This document shows positions 3,385 to 56,966 of a stretch of DNA of 64,000 nucleotides, one piece after another. The notes under the pieces are model-generated. The model saw only the letters and a list, made by a program, of their open reading frames with translations, was not told where the DNA came from and did no database searches. The DNA is from Nisaea sp. (lineage in GTDB: Bacteria > Pseudomonadota > Alphaproteobacteria > Thalassobaculales > Thalassobaculaceae): positions 144,852 to 208,851 of the forward strand of contig NZ_JAEPQA010000001.1 of NCBI RefSeq assembly GCF_017640745.1, read 5' to 3'. Numbering within the stretch: the first letter of the stretch is position 1; each line of letters begins with the position of its first letter. Position numbers and translations under genes: made by a program.

Positions 3385-4761
3385 TCAGAAAAAATCGAGC
3401 CGGACGGCAAAGAGTTTCTCGACCTTCTTCACCACCTCGTAGGTGGCGAAGAGAATGACGCGGTCCTGCGCCTGGATGACCGTATCGCCGCGCGGTACGA
3501 GAACCTCGCCGTCACGGTAGATCGCACCGACGATGACGCCGGCCGGCAGCTTGGCGTCGCGCAACGGGCTGCCGACCAGTTGCGAGGTCTCCAGCGCCTC
3601 GGCCTCGATCACCTCACCAAAGTCACCGCGCAGGGAATAGACGCCGCGAATGCGCCCGCGCCGCACATGCTGCAATATGGTGGAGACCGTGATCGCCCGC
3701 GGGTTGACCACGGCGTCGACTCCAAGGGTCGAAATCAGCGAGGCGTAGGTGCCCTTGTTGATCAGCGCGACCGTACGATCCGCGCCGGCGCGTTTGGCCA
3801 GCAGCGAGCCGATGATGTTCACTTCCTCGTCGTTCGACACCGCGACAAAGGTCTCGGTCTGGGCAACGTTTGCTTCCTCGAGGATCTCGACGTCGAGAGC
3901 GTCTCCGTTGAGCACCATCGTATGGTCGAGGGTCTGCGCCACGAGCTTGGCCCGTTCGCGGTCGTACTCGATCACCTTCACACTGACGCCGGAATGCTTC
4001 GACTCGATCTCTTCGGCAAGCATGAGACCGATATTGCCGCCGCCGGCGATGATGACGCTGCGCCCCTCTTCCTCTTCGTGTCCGAAAGCGGCCATGGCAC
4101 GGGTGAGGTGTCCGGTATCGCACACGAAATAGACATCGTCGCCCGGCAGCATGTGATCGTCCGGTTTCGGCACGATGCCGCGGTCGTCGCGAATGATTCC
4201 GACGACGACGATATTGAGATCGGAAAACAGACTGGTGAGCTGGCGCAGCGGCGTGTTGACGATCGGACAGTCCTCGTCACAGCGCACGCCGACCACCCTC
4301 ACCGCGCCGTCCGCCATCGGTACCACGTCGAACGCGCCCGGCACCTGCAGGCGGCGGCCGATCGCCTTCGCCACTTCGCGCTCCGGCGAGATGATGTGGT
4401 CGATCGGCATGTTCTCACGGCTGAACAGGTCAGCCCAGATCGGCTGCAGATAGTCCTGCTGGCGAATACGGGCGATCCGCGACGGCACGTTGAACAGGGA
4501 ATGCGCGATCTGACAGGCCACCATGTTGACCTCGTCCGAATAGGTCACGGCGATCAGCATGTCCGCGTCACGCGTTCCCGCATCCTCGAGGATGGAAGGC
4601 AGAGACGCGAGGCCGTGAACCCCGCGGACGTCGAGCGTCTCGGCGATCTTGCGGACCAGCGCCGCATCCTGGTCGATGACGGTAACGTCGTTGTTCTCGC
4701 CCGCCAGATGCTGCGCAATGCTGGTGCCGACCTGACCGGCGCCGCAAATAACGACTTTCAT
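3385..4761 (-). CDS. trkA: Trk system potassium uptake regulator TrkA
   Basis: A 458-residue peripheral subunit of the Trk K+ uptake channel, binding NAD(H) on the cytoplasmic side. It has the duplicated TrkA architecture. RCK/Rossmann domain 1 has GAGQVG near residues 7-12, followed by a TrkA-C domain. A second Rossmann domain has GGGNIG at about 240-245 with its own TrkA-C domain. The length is normal. The membrane subunit TrkH/TrkG is not in this window. It lies 24 bases after ntrX; ntr-trkA linkage recurs in alphaproteobacteria and suggests coordinated control of nitrogen and potassium status, though the sequence shows only cotranscription. Confidence 0.95.
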   Translation of the reverse strand: MKVVICGAGQVGTSIAQHLAGENNDVTVIDQDAALVRKIAETLDVRGVHGLASLPSILEDAGTRDADMLIAVTYSDEVNMVACQIAHSLFNVPSRIARIRQQDYLQPIWADLFSRENMPIDHIISPEREVAKAIGRRLQVPGAFDVVPMADGAVRVVGVRCDEDCPIVNTPLRQLTSLFSDLNIVVVGIIRDDRGIVPKPDDHMLPGDDVYFVCDTGHLTRAMAAFGHEEEEGRSVIIAGGGNIGLMLAEEIESKHSGVSVKVIEYDRERAKLVAQTLDHTMVLNGDALDVEILEEANVAQTETFVAVSNDEEVNIIGSLLAKRAGADRTVALINKGTYASLISTLGVDAVVNPRAITVSTILQHVRRGRIRGVYSLRGDFGEVIEAEALETSQLVGSPLRDAKLPAGVIVGAIYRDGEVLVPRGDTVIQAQDRVILFATYEVVKKVEKLFAVRLDFF

Positions 4762-22724: not shown

Positions 22725-23768
22725 TTATGCTTCGACCAGGATGTCTGTGTAGAGCTCGGACGGATCCGGCTCCGGGCTCGATTGCGCGAAATCGGCGGCG
22801 TCGGTCACGATCGCCTTGATCTCCTTGTCGATGCCCTTGAGCTCATCCTCGTCGAGCCCCATCTCCAGCAGCGTCGCGCGCAGATGGTCGATCGGGTCGT
22901 GCTCCTGCCGCATCTTGTTGACCTCTTCCTTGGTCCGGTATTTCGCCGGATCGGACATGGAATGGCCGCGATAGCGGTAGGTTTTCATCTCGAGAATGTA
23001 GGGGCCCTTGCCGGAGCGACAGTGTTTCACGGCTTTCTCGGCGGCGGCGTGCACGGCCACCACATCCATACCGTCGACCTCCTCGCCCGGAATGCCGTAG
23101 GCGGCCCCGCGCTGGAAGAGCGACGTGCCGGCAGCGGCGCGGGTCACGGACGTGCCCATGGCGTACTTGTTGTTCTCGATGATGTAGATCACCGGAAGCT
23201 TCCAGAGAGAGGCCATGTTGAAGCTCTCATAGACCTGACCCTGGTTCAGCGCGCCGTCGCCGAGATAGGTCAGGCTGACTTCCTGAGAGCCATTGTACTT
23301 ATTCGCGAAGGCGAGACCTGTACCGATCGGAACCTGCGCCGCGACGATTCCGTGGCCGCCGTAGAAATCCTTCTCGCGGCTGAACATGTGCATCGAGCCG
23401 CCCTTGCCTTTGGAGAGGCCTCCGATGCGGCCGGTCAGTTCGGCCATCACGCCCTTCGGGTCCATGCCGCAGGCCAGCATGTGCCCGTGGTCACGATAGC
23501 TGGTGATCACCTTGTCGCCCTTGCCGATCGCCGCCTGCATGCCGACCACGACCGCTTCCTGGCCGATATAGAGATGGCAGAAACCGCCAATCAGCCCCAT
23601 GCCGTACATCTGCCCCGCCTTCTCTTCGAAGCGGCGGATGAGCAGCATGTCGCGATAATACGGAAGAAGCTCCGCAACATTGTTCTTCGGCGGGCTGCTG
23701 GTCCGGGATTTACGAGTCCGTGTGGATGCGCCGCGGCTGCCGCCGGCGGCTGACTTCGCTTGAGCCAT
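22725..23768 (-). CDS. pdhA: Pyruvate dehydrogenase E1 alpha subunit
   Basis: A 347-residue E1-alpha, which decarboxylates pyruvate on thiamine diphosphate. The TPP motif begins GDGALNQGQVYESFN and ends at IIENNKYAMGT. The loop that is phosphorylated in mitochondria is visible as RYRGHSMSDPAKYR. The frame is open to 23825, but the ATG at 23768 follows AAAGGGAGAGAG directly and gives MAQAKSAAGG with a basic, flexible N-terminus typical of the family. First gene of pdhABC; a likely promoter with repeated AATTAACC elements lies upstream. Confidence 0.95.
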   Translation of the reverse strand: MAQAKSAAGGSRGASTRTRKSRTSSPPKNNVAELLPYYRDMLLIRRFEEKAGQMYGMGLIGGFCHLYIGQEAVVVGMQAAIGKGDKVITSYRDHGHMLACGMDPKGVMAELTGRIGGLSKGKGGSMHMFSREKDFYGGHGIVAAQVPIGTGLAFANKYNGSQEVSLTYLGDGALNQGQVYESFNMASLWKLPVIYIIENNKYAMGTSVTRAAAGTSLFQRGAAYGIPGEEVDGMDVVAVHAAAEKAVKHCRSGKGPYILEMKTYRYRGHSMSDPAKYRTKEEVNKMRQEHDPIDHLRATLLEMGLDEDELKGIDKEIKAIVTDAADFAQSSPEPDPSELYTDILVEA

Positions 23769-23839
23769 CTCTCTCCCTTTCGACCGGAACGAGGCGTCGC
23801 TTTTACGAAACGATCTACGCCTCACTTGGTGTCAAAAGA

Positions 23840-23868
23840 GAAATACTTCAAATTAACCTGATTTTCAA
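23840..23868 (-). promoter_or_regulatory. Candidate promoter of pdhA
   Basis: On the minus strand TTGAAA (23868-23863) and TATTTC (23845-23840) are 17 bases apart. One AATTAACC element lies inside the spacer. The predicted start is near 23833, leaving a leader of about 65 bases. The 153-bp gap upstream of pdhA is among the most AT-rich stretches of the window. Confidence 0.4.
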
Positions 23869-23927
23869 CAGAGTTAACTTATTGATAAATAAAGGAATAA
23901 CTATAATTAACCGTATATCGGTTAATT
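23851..23927. promoter_or_regulatory. Repeated AATTAACC elements, probable operator array of pdhA
   Basis: AATTAACC occurs at 23851-23858 and 23905-23912, and inverted at 23920-23927. The last two form a palindrome, AATTAACCG (23905-23913) and CGGTTAATT (23919-23927), around TATAT, and it overlaps the ftsB stop codon. A further palindrome, AGTTAACT, lies at 23872-23879. The arrangement suggests a dimeric repressor or activator of the pdh operon; its identity is unknown. Confidence 0.5.
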
Positions 23928-24317
23928 GATGCGCGAAGCCATTGAAATCGCCTGTGTTTCGACCGGTCCAGAGAGTCCATCGAGCGAAATGGCGTCCTGA
24001 TAACCGGCGAGATCCTGTAGCACGAACTCGTCCCTGCCCTGATAGTTCAGGACGATGCGGGCCTGTTCCGTCAGCAGGTCGCGGTCGATGCTTTCCGGGT
24101 GCAGCATGGCCACTTTCTTCTCGAGTGCCTCGCGGCGCTCCTTCAGAACCGCGAGACGGGCCTCGGCGGCCTCGATCTTGCTGTCGAGCGCACGCCAGGC
24201 ATGAACGCCGCGATCGCCCTCGACGGCATGGAAGACAAAATAACCGAGGAGCAGGCAGCCGATGACCGGCCCTACAACATGCTTTGCGCGACGTTTGATC
24301 TCGAATGCGAGAGTCAT
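23922..24317 (-). CDS. ftsB: FtsB/DivIC-type septum formation initiator protein
   Basis: A 131-residue small bitopic protein of the septum formation initiator family, part of the FtsQLB divisome complex. A short basic cytoplasmic tail is followed by one transmembrane helix (about 13-30) and a coiled coil (about 42-72, rich in E/A/R/L). After it comes the short periplasmic motif region around DRDLLTEQARIVLNYQGRDEFVL. The frame is open to 24347; I use the ATG at 24317 because GGAGGAG precedes it and the N-terminus then matches the family. Its place between eno and pdhA is the standard alphaproteobacterial order. Confidence 0.9.
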   Translation of the reverse strand: MTLAFEIKRRAKHVVGPVIGCLLLGYFVFHAVEGDRGVHAWRALDSKIEAAEARLAVLKERREALEKKVAMLHPESIDRDLLTEQARIVLNYQGRDEFVLQDLAGYQDAISLDGLSGPVETQAISMASRIN

Positions 24318-24337
24318 CAGCTCCTCCGTTACGCAGG

Positions 24338-24366
24338 AGTGAATCACCGGCGAATCGGGCGGTCAA
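24338..24366 (-). promoter_or_regulatory. Candidate promoter of ftsB
   Basis: On the minus strand TTGACC (24366-24361) and TTCACT (24343-24338) are 17 bases apart. The predicted start near 24331 leaves a short leader with the GGAGGAG ribosome site. The -10 element is weak. Confidence 0.35.
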
Positions 24367-24380
24367 CGTGAACGAAATGA

Positions 24381-24400
24381 GAACCTTGAATTTAAGGTTC
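24381..24400. promoter_or_regulatory. 20-bp near-palindrome upstream of ftsB
   Basis: GAACCTTGAATTTAAGGTTC is an inverted repeat with 7-bp perfect arms. It lies about 60 bases upstream of the predicted ftsB start site, a usual place for an activator, and downstream of the eno terminator in the leftward direction. The binding protein is unknown. Confidence 0.4.
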
Positions 24401-39719: not shown

Positions 39720-40238
39720 TCAGCGCCGGACCCGGTCCAGCGCCTTTTTCAGGGATTCCAGCTCGCCGAGCGCGGTCCGGACCTCTTCCATCGCATCCGT
39801 GGCGAGACCGTCCTGGCCATTGCCGTCGACCGATGCCTGTGTCCCGTCAGCCTCGAAAGGCAGACCCGGCTGCGCATCGTCAGCTTTCGCGGCGCTGTTC
39901 GGCCCCGGAATTTCCGGATCGTACTCGCCGCCGTCATTGCGCATGGCGGCGCGCGCGCCGCCGTCTTTCAACAGCTTCTGCACGCCCTTGATGGTGTAGC
40001 CATCCTGATAGAGCAACGTCCGGATACGGCGCAGAAGCGCGACGTCTTCGGGACGGTAATAACGCCGTCCGCCGCCGCGTTTCAGCGGCCGCACCTGAGA
40101 GAACTTGGTTTCCCAGAAACGGAGAACGTGCGGCGGAACCTCAAGATCGTCTGCAACTTCGCTGATCGTGCGGAAAGCCGACGCGGACTTGCCGTTCCTA
40201 CGCGTCCCAGTGCTCTGATGGTCGGTTTGCATAGCCAT
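39720..40238 (-). CDS. MerR-family transcriptional regulator
   Basis: A 172-residue regulator with a MerR-type winged helix at about residues 21-90 ([22 protein letters not shown], then a wing with [13 protein letters not shown]). A short helical extension ([20 protein letters not shown]) follows, and the remaining tail is acidic and low in complexity. No effector-binding cysteines are present, so it is not a metal sensor of the classical type. The gene lies 20 bases after ihfA on the same strand, an arrangement conserved across alphaproteobacteria, but its targets are not known to me. The second in-frame ATG at 40232 is an alternative start. Confidence 0.9.
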
Positions 40239-40258
40239 TAGGCGTCATGCCTCCGTAC

Positions 40259-40570
40259 TCACCCGGCGTCGCCGCCAAGCCCTTCGTTGATCCGGTTCTT
40301 GAGGACATGGGAAGGCCTGAAGACCAGCACTTTACGCGGCAAAATCGGAACTTCCTCGCCGGTCTTGGGATTGCGTCCGATGCGCTCCCCCTTCTGGCGT
40401 ACCAGGAAACTTCCGAACGAAGAGATCTTGACCACCTCGTCGCGAGACAAGGATTGCGCAATTTCTTCGAGAACAGCTTCAACCAATTCGGCGGACTCGT
40501 TACGAGAAAGACCGACTTCTTGGTACACTGCCTCGCTCAATTGAGCCCGTGTAACCGTCTTACCAGTCAT
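40259..40570 (-). CDS. ihfA: Integration host factor alpha subunit
   Basis: A 103-residue DNA-bending protein of the HU/IHF family. The alpha-subunit pattern is clear: [41 protein letters not shown] and the arm [18 protein letters not shown]. The frame has ATGs at 40582 and 40570. I choose 40570 because the predicted transcription start (about 40588) would leave almost no leader for the first one, and GGGGGTGG stands before the second. The beta subunit is not in this window. Confidence 0.94.
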
Positions 40571-40594
40571 AGCCACCCCCATCCTTAGCAGCCT

Positions 40595-56198: not shown

Positions 56199-56513
56199 TT
56201 TCCGTCCGACCAAACGCTCCTCGTTGCGGCGAGCCCACTATATACGCCACCCGGACTCCTGCGCACCACTATTTCCGCGCCTAAGTCCTCTGCATCGCAC
56301 GCATAGACTGACATTCGCGCCATAATATATTCGCGGCCGTATTTTGACCGTAAATTCCAGATAATGATGCCTCCCAGAAATCAGCCGGAAATATGAGATT
56401 CAAGTTCAACATATGGAAAACGGAATGAAGTTTATTTCTTGACAACTACTTCGCTCGGGACAATGTTCCGCACTCGAGATCATCACTTTAAAGTTCATTA
56501 TCGGATCGCAAAA
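56199..56513. promoter_or_regulatory. Divergent control region between rpiB and mucR
   Basis: This 315-bp gap holds no credible gene. It is clearly richer in A/T than its surroundings, especially 56320-56440. A perfect -35 hexamer TTGACA at 56439-56444 with a weak AATGTT at 56462-56467 (17-base spacer) could drive mucR. On the minus strand a TATAGT box near 56237-56242 may serve rpiB. MucR proteins bind AT/T-rich sites and often repress themselves, so autoregulation here is a fair guess. Confidence 0.5.
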
Positions 56514-56966
56514 ATGACCGAAGAATCCCGCGAAGAAAATCTGGGCTCCTCTGAACTACTGCGCATGACGACGGACGTCGTGTCGGCCTATCTCGGAAAT
56601 AACACCGTGGCCGCTTCGCAGATTTCAGAGATCATCAGCACCGTTCATGAGGCCTTGTCGCGTCTCAATACTGAAGTAAGCGAACCGGAAGCGGAGCCGG
56701 CGAAACCGGCTGTCCCGGTCCGGCGTTCGATTACGCCCGAATACATTATATGTCTCGAAGACGGTAAGCGCCTGAAAATGCTCAAGCGTCACCTTCGGAC
56801 TACCTACAACATGACTCCGGAAGAGTACCGTGCGAAATGGGGCCTGCCGGCCGACTATCCGATGGTCGCCCCGAACTATGCCGCGCAGCGTTCGGAATTC
56901 GCGAAGAAGATCGGCCTGGGCCGCAATGCAGTGAAGCGCGGCGGGCGCAAGCGTAAAGCCGGTTAA
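56514..56966 (+). CDS. MucR/Ros-family transcriptional regulator
   Basis: A 150-residue regulator of the Ros/MucR family, which controls exopolysaccharide, motility and cell-cycle genes in alphaproteobacteria. The N-terminal oligomerising part has LRMTTDVVSAYLGNNTV. The DNA-binding part has the zinc-finger-like YIICLEDGKRLKMLKRHLRT followed by TPEEYRAKWGLPADYPMVAP and a basic tail (NAVKRGGRKRKAG). Only one cysteine stands at the start of the finger, a variation common in MucR. The frame opens earlier, but the ATG at 56514 gives the typical MTEES start; the ribosome site is weak. A strong terminator follows. Confidence 0.93.
   Translation: MTEESREENLGSSELLRMTTDVVSAYLGNNTVAASQISEIISTVHEALSRLNTEVSEPEAEPAKPAVPVRRSITPEYIICLEDGKRLKMLKRHLRTTYNMTPEEYRAKWGLPADYPMVAPNYAAQRSEFAKKIGLGRNAVKRGGRKRKAG

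Follow-up and report, generated by a model that had tools for sequence, protein, structure and literature searches.

A conserved palindrome upstream of pdhA as a putative operator of a pyruvate dehydrogenase regulator in Alphaproteobacteria

The window (the whole 64-kb stretch of DNA that was analysed) carries on its minus strand the pyruvate dehydrogenase gene pdhA, followed downstream by pdhB and then pdhC, and preceded by an ftsB-like gene. The octamer AATTAACC occurs exactly three times in the window, as exact matches at 23851-23858 (plus strand), 23905-23912 (plus strand) and 23920-23927 (minus strand), all of them in the ftsB–pdhA gap. The features of this region are the following:

22725-23768, minus strand: pdhA, pyruvate dehydrogenase E1 alpha (Pfam E1_dh), with its ATG at 23768-23766
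23845-23840, minus strand: predicted -10 box TATTTC, 17-bp spacer
23851-23858, plus strand: third copy of AATTAACC, in the promoter spacer; non-conserved and judged incidental
23868-23863, minus strand: predicted -35 box TTGAAA, 38 bp after the dyad
23860-23889, minus strand: AT-rich stretch TTTATCAATAAGTTAACTCTGTTGAAAATC, overlapping the -35 box and kept in the genus
23905-23927, no strand assigned: dyad AATTAACC-N7-GGTTAATT, putative operator of a dimeric regulator
23907-23925, centre 23916: conserved 19-bp core of the dyad, TTAACC-N7-GGTTAA
23922-23924, minus strand: ftsB stop codon TAA, within the dyad
23922-24347, minus strand: ftsB-like gene (Pfam DivIC), upstream of pdhA

The original prediction had noticed three copies of AATTAACC in the gap, two of them forming a palindrome over the ftsB stop codon and the third lying between the -35 and -10 boxes of the best promoter candidate. 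These three statements were confirmed: shuffled windows contained 0.32 copies on average and never three or more in 100 shuffles, the palindrome at 23905-23927 covers the stop codon at 23922-23924, and the position of the third copy was recovered with our own promoter scorer (model TTGNNN/TANNNT). The idea that the three repeats work together as one unit was dropped, because the inverted pair alone is conserved: at the place of the third copy, two of the five genus genomes carry GGTTAATT and the other three AGTTAATT, GGTAAATT and GGTAAATT. The 8-mer itself did not hold as the unit either, the conserved half-site being TTAACY and the outer AA of AATTAACC only a weak preference among 55 distinct sites. 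The inverted pair, searched as TTAACC-N3..11-GGTTAA, occurs a single time in the 4.5-Mb genome (97% complete).

Upstream of pdhA, an exact TTAACC-N7-GGTTAA was found in all five genomes of the genus with five different middles (GATATAC, GTAATAA, TAAAAGC, GTAAACA and ACAAACT, read towards pdhA), and fixed arms around a drifting middle are the pattern of a dimer-binding site. With one mismatch allowed, the other matches in the genus genomes were a tRNA-Ser gene, common to two of them, and three one-off sites, each of which overlaps an open reading frame. A set of 110 pdhA loci (80 named loci and 30 from the family of the window organism) was then compared; 109 have at least 300 bp of upstream DNA, and the named locus L013, with 25 bp upstream, was left out, leaving 79 named loci. 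Within 400 bp of pdhA, TTAACYRNNNNNYRGTTAA was present with at most one mismatch in 20 of the 30 family loci and 30 of the 79 named ones, these counts being slightly inflated by duplicate loci from two collections (e.g. L002/L136, L004/L140, L007/L139, L022/L175 and L023/L172) and the start codons, assigned by script, being uncertain in some loci. The corresponding means in shuffled upstream DNA were 0 and 0.05, and the reversed TTAACYRNNNNNYRGTTAA pattern was found in no family and no named locus. Nine of the 30 family loci and 42 of the 79 named loci have no site at up to two mismatches.

The dyad is carried by, among others, Azospirillum, Belnapia, Tistrella, Ferrovibrio, Parvibaculum, Bosea and one Methylobacterium, with one mismatch by Magnetospirillum, and in a weaker form by Thalassospira. 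Among the pdhA loci without it (at least three mismatches) are the nine of the family, two other Methylobacterium loci, those of Hyphomonas, Maricaulis, Reyranella and Caenispirillum, and loci of Rhodobacterales (Cereibacter, Paracoccus and Aliiroseovarius, for example). The consensus, in which each of the 55 distinct sites counts once, is TTAACYgaaattcRGTTAA, with an almost invariant AAC/GTT core. The 82 dyad loci represent 77 distinct sequences, and 24 of the 82 entered the set because of a match to the strict pattern. At three loci (L006, L018 and L023) the dyad is kept where ftsB is not adjacent. The metagenome-assembled genome G053 has two pdhA-type genes, each with a dyad (L166, position 4065, and L062), as a result of either a duplication or a mixed bin. 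The view that the palindrome is a real, conserved site linked to pdhA thus withstood the comparison of relatives.

A 19-bp site that persists in many distantly related alphaproteobacteria, although the DNA around it varies, very probably serves to bind a regulator. We therefore read the dyad at 23905-23927 as the putative conserved operator of a pdhA regulator, with a probability of roughly 0.8. The arms are conserved across species, the middle drifts and the site lies upstream of the same gene; this reading further draws on the pdhA position in many lineages, the near-single occurrence per genome and the recurrence before maeB elsewhere. We infer that a protein binds at the dyad; it would be a sequence-specific dimeric transcription factor controlling transcription of the pdhA-B-C operon.

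The predicted promoter gives the dyad a defined geometry. Transcription is predicted to start at about 23833, which would place the dyad centre near -83. A stricter sigma-70 scan of 23700-24100 returned no promoter, so that the window promoter is weak by consensus and is argued for by its conservation. The AT-rich stretch at 23860-23889 is near-palindromic in two sister species (TTTTCAATA-N9-TATTGAAAA) and occupies the position that a PhaR-type core has in some other genera. Of the 21 own-family loci having the site, 19 have 37-39 bp between dyad and -35 box, the exceptions being L125 and L129, where the top promoter of the scorer lies elsewhere. This distance is 28-29 bp in Azospirillum canadense and in genomes of the A. 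cavernae type, 46-48 bp in several other lineages, and 59 bp, with a weak -35 box, in Bosea and Methylobacterium. Among 79 scored loci, 55 were kept (promoter score of at least 13, spacing 20-70) and 24 excluded for a weak or out-of-range promoter; the 55 form 37 sequence clusters, 17 with a spacing of 37-40, six of 46-48, two of 28-29, three of 43-44 and nine elsewhere. These changes by steps of about 10 bp are suggestive of helix phasing, with off-phase exceptions including 43-44, in an exploratory test dominated by the 37-40 cluster, whose p-values assume independent lineages while relatedness inflates the statistic. The dyad centre would accordingly lie near -83 from the predicted start in the window, whereas other lineages would have it near -73 or -92, about one helical turn apart. 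Class I activator dyads of CRP are located at about -62, -72, -83 and -93; the helix-phased upstream positions are alike, but the half-site spacing and sequence differ, and the phasing of the present dyad is suggestive only.

From this position and spacing, we somewhat favour a regulator that mainly activates pdhA, the dimer on the dyad helping RNA polymerase from upstream in a class I-like manner. The dyad could instead be the operator of a repressor, acting from a distance with looping or with a second weak site. Such a role would suit the sites found before maeB, where only 33-62 bp separate the beginning of the dyad from the start codon, a position for a repressor or roadblock. In 28 of the 37 clusters at pdhA, however, the dyad precedes the predicted -35 box by 28-48 bp, which is poor for simple repression, and the spacing tends to shift, with exceptions, in steps of about 10 bp; repression of pdhA is consequently considered rather unlikely.

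The maeB sites were found in five genomes (L165, L167, L168, L213, and L226 with one mismatch). One came from the class draw described below; searches of named genomes gave those of Azospirillum oleiclasticum, A. canadense and Thalassospira and the one-mismatch site, which is in a genome from the same family as A. cavernae. The maeB product has malic enzyme domains and a phosphotransacetylase-type domain. Because the site stands just upstream of the start codon, repression is more natural there, and from this position the same protein may repress or roadblock maeB in Azospirillum-type genomes and Thalassospira. In lineages with both sites, activation of pdhA and repression of maeB would direct pyruvate towards acetyl-CoA with less supply from malate. 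None of the 30 own-family maeB loci has a site with at most one mismatch, and the site of L250 (two mismatches, 222 bp upstream) was judged to be due to chance; control of maeB in the own family was dropped, and the wider regulon is thus not the window organism's own.

The size of the regulon was estimated from a class draw of 387 genomes searched with the strict pattern, which gave 61 sites in 55 genomes and no match in the other 332. Twenty-five of the 61 sites lie before pdhA (24 loci and the window) and one before maeB; another 25 are not near any of five reference genes, the surroundings having been examined for 51 of the 61 and the AT-rich matches compared against these five genes only. 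Ten of these 25 sites were inspected in detail, nine being inside an open reading frame and one intergenic (L212). With the 1-mismatch pattern, 30 genomes picked for having a pdhA site contained 49 sites, 31 of them at pdhA, versus 64 for the reversed control. The motif is thus not generally enriched and any regulon would be tiny. Beyond pdhA, the sites that seem to recur or to fit are those of maeB and of one DUF485-symporter operon: in A. canadense a perfect dyad precedes a DUF485-sodium:solute symporter pair (actP-like; L164, around 3586-4048). A very small, pyruvate-node regulon is the best reading, and a regulator that senses the status of pyruvate or acetyl-CoA would be in keeping with it.

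That one of the known regulators PdhR, CceR, CrbR, CtrA, FNR/FixK, PhaR or PcaQ binds the dyad is very unlikely, as no tested consensus (PdhR, CceR, CrbR, CtrA, FNR, PhaR, PcaQ) matches in 23830-23940. The E. coli regulator PdhR (GntR family) recognizes a dyad of the GGT-N3-ACC / TGGT-N3-ACCA type, the latter having no match in this interval. Both systems place a short dyad, with a dimer expected, upstream of the pyruvate dehydrogenase operon, but in the present one, TTAAC-N9-GTTAA, the half-sites are in opposite order and wider apart. The CtrA site, TTAA-N7-TTAA, likewise has no match in 23830-23940.

Two of these regulators have a known or predicted connection to pdh genes in alphaproteobacteria. 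The predicted targets of the LacI-family regulator CceR in Rhodobacter sphaeroides are pdhAB and malic enzyme (PMC4344238), the same gene pair as in our analysis, and in Paracoccus denitrificans the malic enzyme falls when CceR is lacking (PMC11323563). However, the predicted CceR motif, [AGT]GTT-N6-8-AAC[ACT] (DGTT-N6-8-AACH; PMC4344238), was not found in 23830-23940; its order is GTT then AAC whereas that of the dyad is AAC then GTT, the predicted control extends to many genes whereas the dyad is nearly restricted to pdhA, and the Rhodobacterales loci of our set (for example Cereibacter and Paracoccus) are devoid of the dyad. The ACTU motif of Pseudomonas CrbR, located at -52 to -36 of acs, is also an inverted repeat, with actP among the targets, but the sequences listed for it, such as TACTACCATCGTCGAAT, are unlike the dyad (PMC5715377); the pattern TANNACYNNNGTC, which we derived from them, had no match in 23830-23940.

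PhaR (AniA) shares with the putative regulator the same promoter or operon and a positive regulation of pdh, but reads another motif, absent from the window pdhA. For Bradyrhizobium diazoefficiens, a shift of pdhA promoter DNA was obtained at the highest of the PhaR levels used, pdhA is down 2.25-fold without PhaR, and the authors consider that direct positive regulation may occur (PMC6201568). PhaR of Sinorhizobium meliloti has a positive effect on PdhB/PdhC and a slight one on the malic enzyme Tme, and the table of promoters bearing its motif does not list pdhA (PMC12542648). Around the dyad, a PhaR-type core TGCRNYGCR is centred 23-24 bp from the dyad centre in 19 of the 82 loci (18 of 77 distinct sequences), versus 0.0002 per locus in shuffles, and at +53 in two Bosea loci and one Methylobacterium locus; PhaR perhaps acts together with the regulator at pdhA in the genera where the core is 23-24 bp away. 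A PhaR-type protein is encoded by 21 of 36 family genomes, including that of the window. Yet the window pdhA region (23761-24400; 23830-23940) has no PhaR core despite this gene, and seven of the eight family loci with a core at +24 belong to genomes that have a PhaR match, the eighth to a genome without one (G025). PhaR does not, therefore, explain the dyad. Two further candidates were set aside: RpuR of Sinorhizobium fredii binds a direct repeat and not a dyad (PMC9100948), and the pdh effects of RedB and FnrL in Rhodobacter capsulatus are called indirect (PMC9603517).

The dyad might also be an RNA element, either the intrinsic terminator of ftsB or a leader hairpin, as its RNA is able to fold into a stem of nine pairs and a lax scan flagged 23927-23905 as terminator-like (9 pairs), 0.5 being expected from shuffled sequence. 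This interpretation is highly improbable and was dropped. Only three of the nine pairs are GC and the tail reads ATAGTTATTC, which is not the GC-rich stem followed by a T-run of a terminator; the z-score of the fold is only -1.39 and no Rfam match was obtained for the dyad region. Among the relatives' sites, 10 of 55 have a C/A mismatch at positions 6/14, where matched pairs are commoner than under independence, as in any dyad. Many relatives have no T-run behind the dyad, the dyad persists away from ftsB, and the pdhA mRNA need not contain it because the predicted promoter lies downstream. As for a chance palindrome, which the AT-rich ftsB–pdhA gap and the self-complementary TTAA could favour, its probability is negligible and it appears refuted, as far as sequence can show, by the cross-species conservation against shuffles and reversed pattern and by the single occurrence in the genome.

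The gene of the putative pdhA regulator was searched for in the neighbourhood. No Pfam match to a GntR/PdhR-type regulator was found among the 34 proteins scanned out of the 63 predicted in the window, which include most genes within 13 kb of pdhA; five of the 34 had no Pfam match of any kind. Two other regulator genes are present:

39723-40582, minus strand: MerR-type regulator gene beside an IHF/HU-type gene, about 16 kb away
56439-56963, plus strand: ROS/MucR-type regulator gene, about 32 kb away

The MerR-type gene is a lead only by its location in the window, proximity alone being no evidence, and nothing was found on this neighbour in a literature search. Some MerR operators have a 6-7-6 layout resembling the dyad but are located between the -35 and -10 boxes. 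Between ftsB and pdhA, no recurring regulator gene was seen in 16 loci that carry the dyad and either lack an ftsB match or show a gap of at least 330 bp, the genes being judged by reading; the only one, a LysR-type gene in the same direction in Tistrella (L045), was taken as local. A regulator gene preceded by its own dyad was not noticed among the sites whose surroundings were read in detail.

Carbon from sugars and lactate reaches acetyl-CoA mainly through pyruvate dehydrogenase. In open-licence literature (subscription papers being outside the scope), no direct pdh regulator besides PhaR was found for alphaproteobacteria outside Rhodobacterales, and the motif strings of the dyad had no text match, logos in figures not being covered. 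The dyad would then be ordinary in kind, as a transcription factor site, and its identity appears new as far as the searched literature shows. Its class-wide breadth and near-single target make it a good lead for the missing pdh regulator, and a defined 19-bp operator together with species having and lacking it offers a direct route to the identity of this protein. We tentatively propose, as a possibility, that many Alphaproteobacteria share an ancient dedicated pyruvate dehydrogenase regulator, a functional counterpart of PdhR from another protein family. It would read TTAACYgaaattcRGTTAA, have between one and three target promoters (that of pdhA and in some cases those of maeB and actP) and act on RNA polymerase from upstream in a helix-phased manner; part of the class would combine it with PhaR in a rigid composite element that links polyhydroxybutyrate status to the entry of pyruvate. 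The fixed neighbourhood with PhaR-type sites suggests that one promoter could read both storage polymer status and pyruvate entry.

Further PhaR-like sequences were observed. Upstream of the dyad in two sister species (L086 and L087, 1250-1520), the PhaR consensus TGCRNYGCASMA matches TGCAATGCAGCA and TGCAGCGCAGCA, both inside the 3' end of ftsB, and a PhaR-like TGCATTGCG lies downstream of the symporter dyad of A. canadense (L164).
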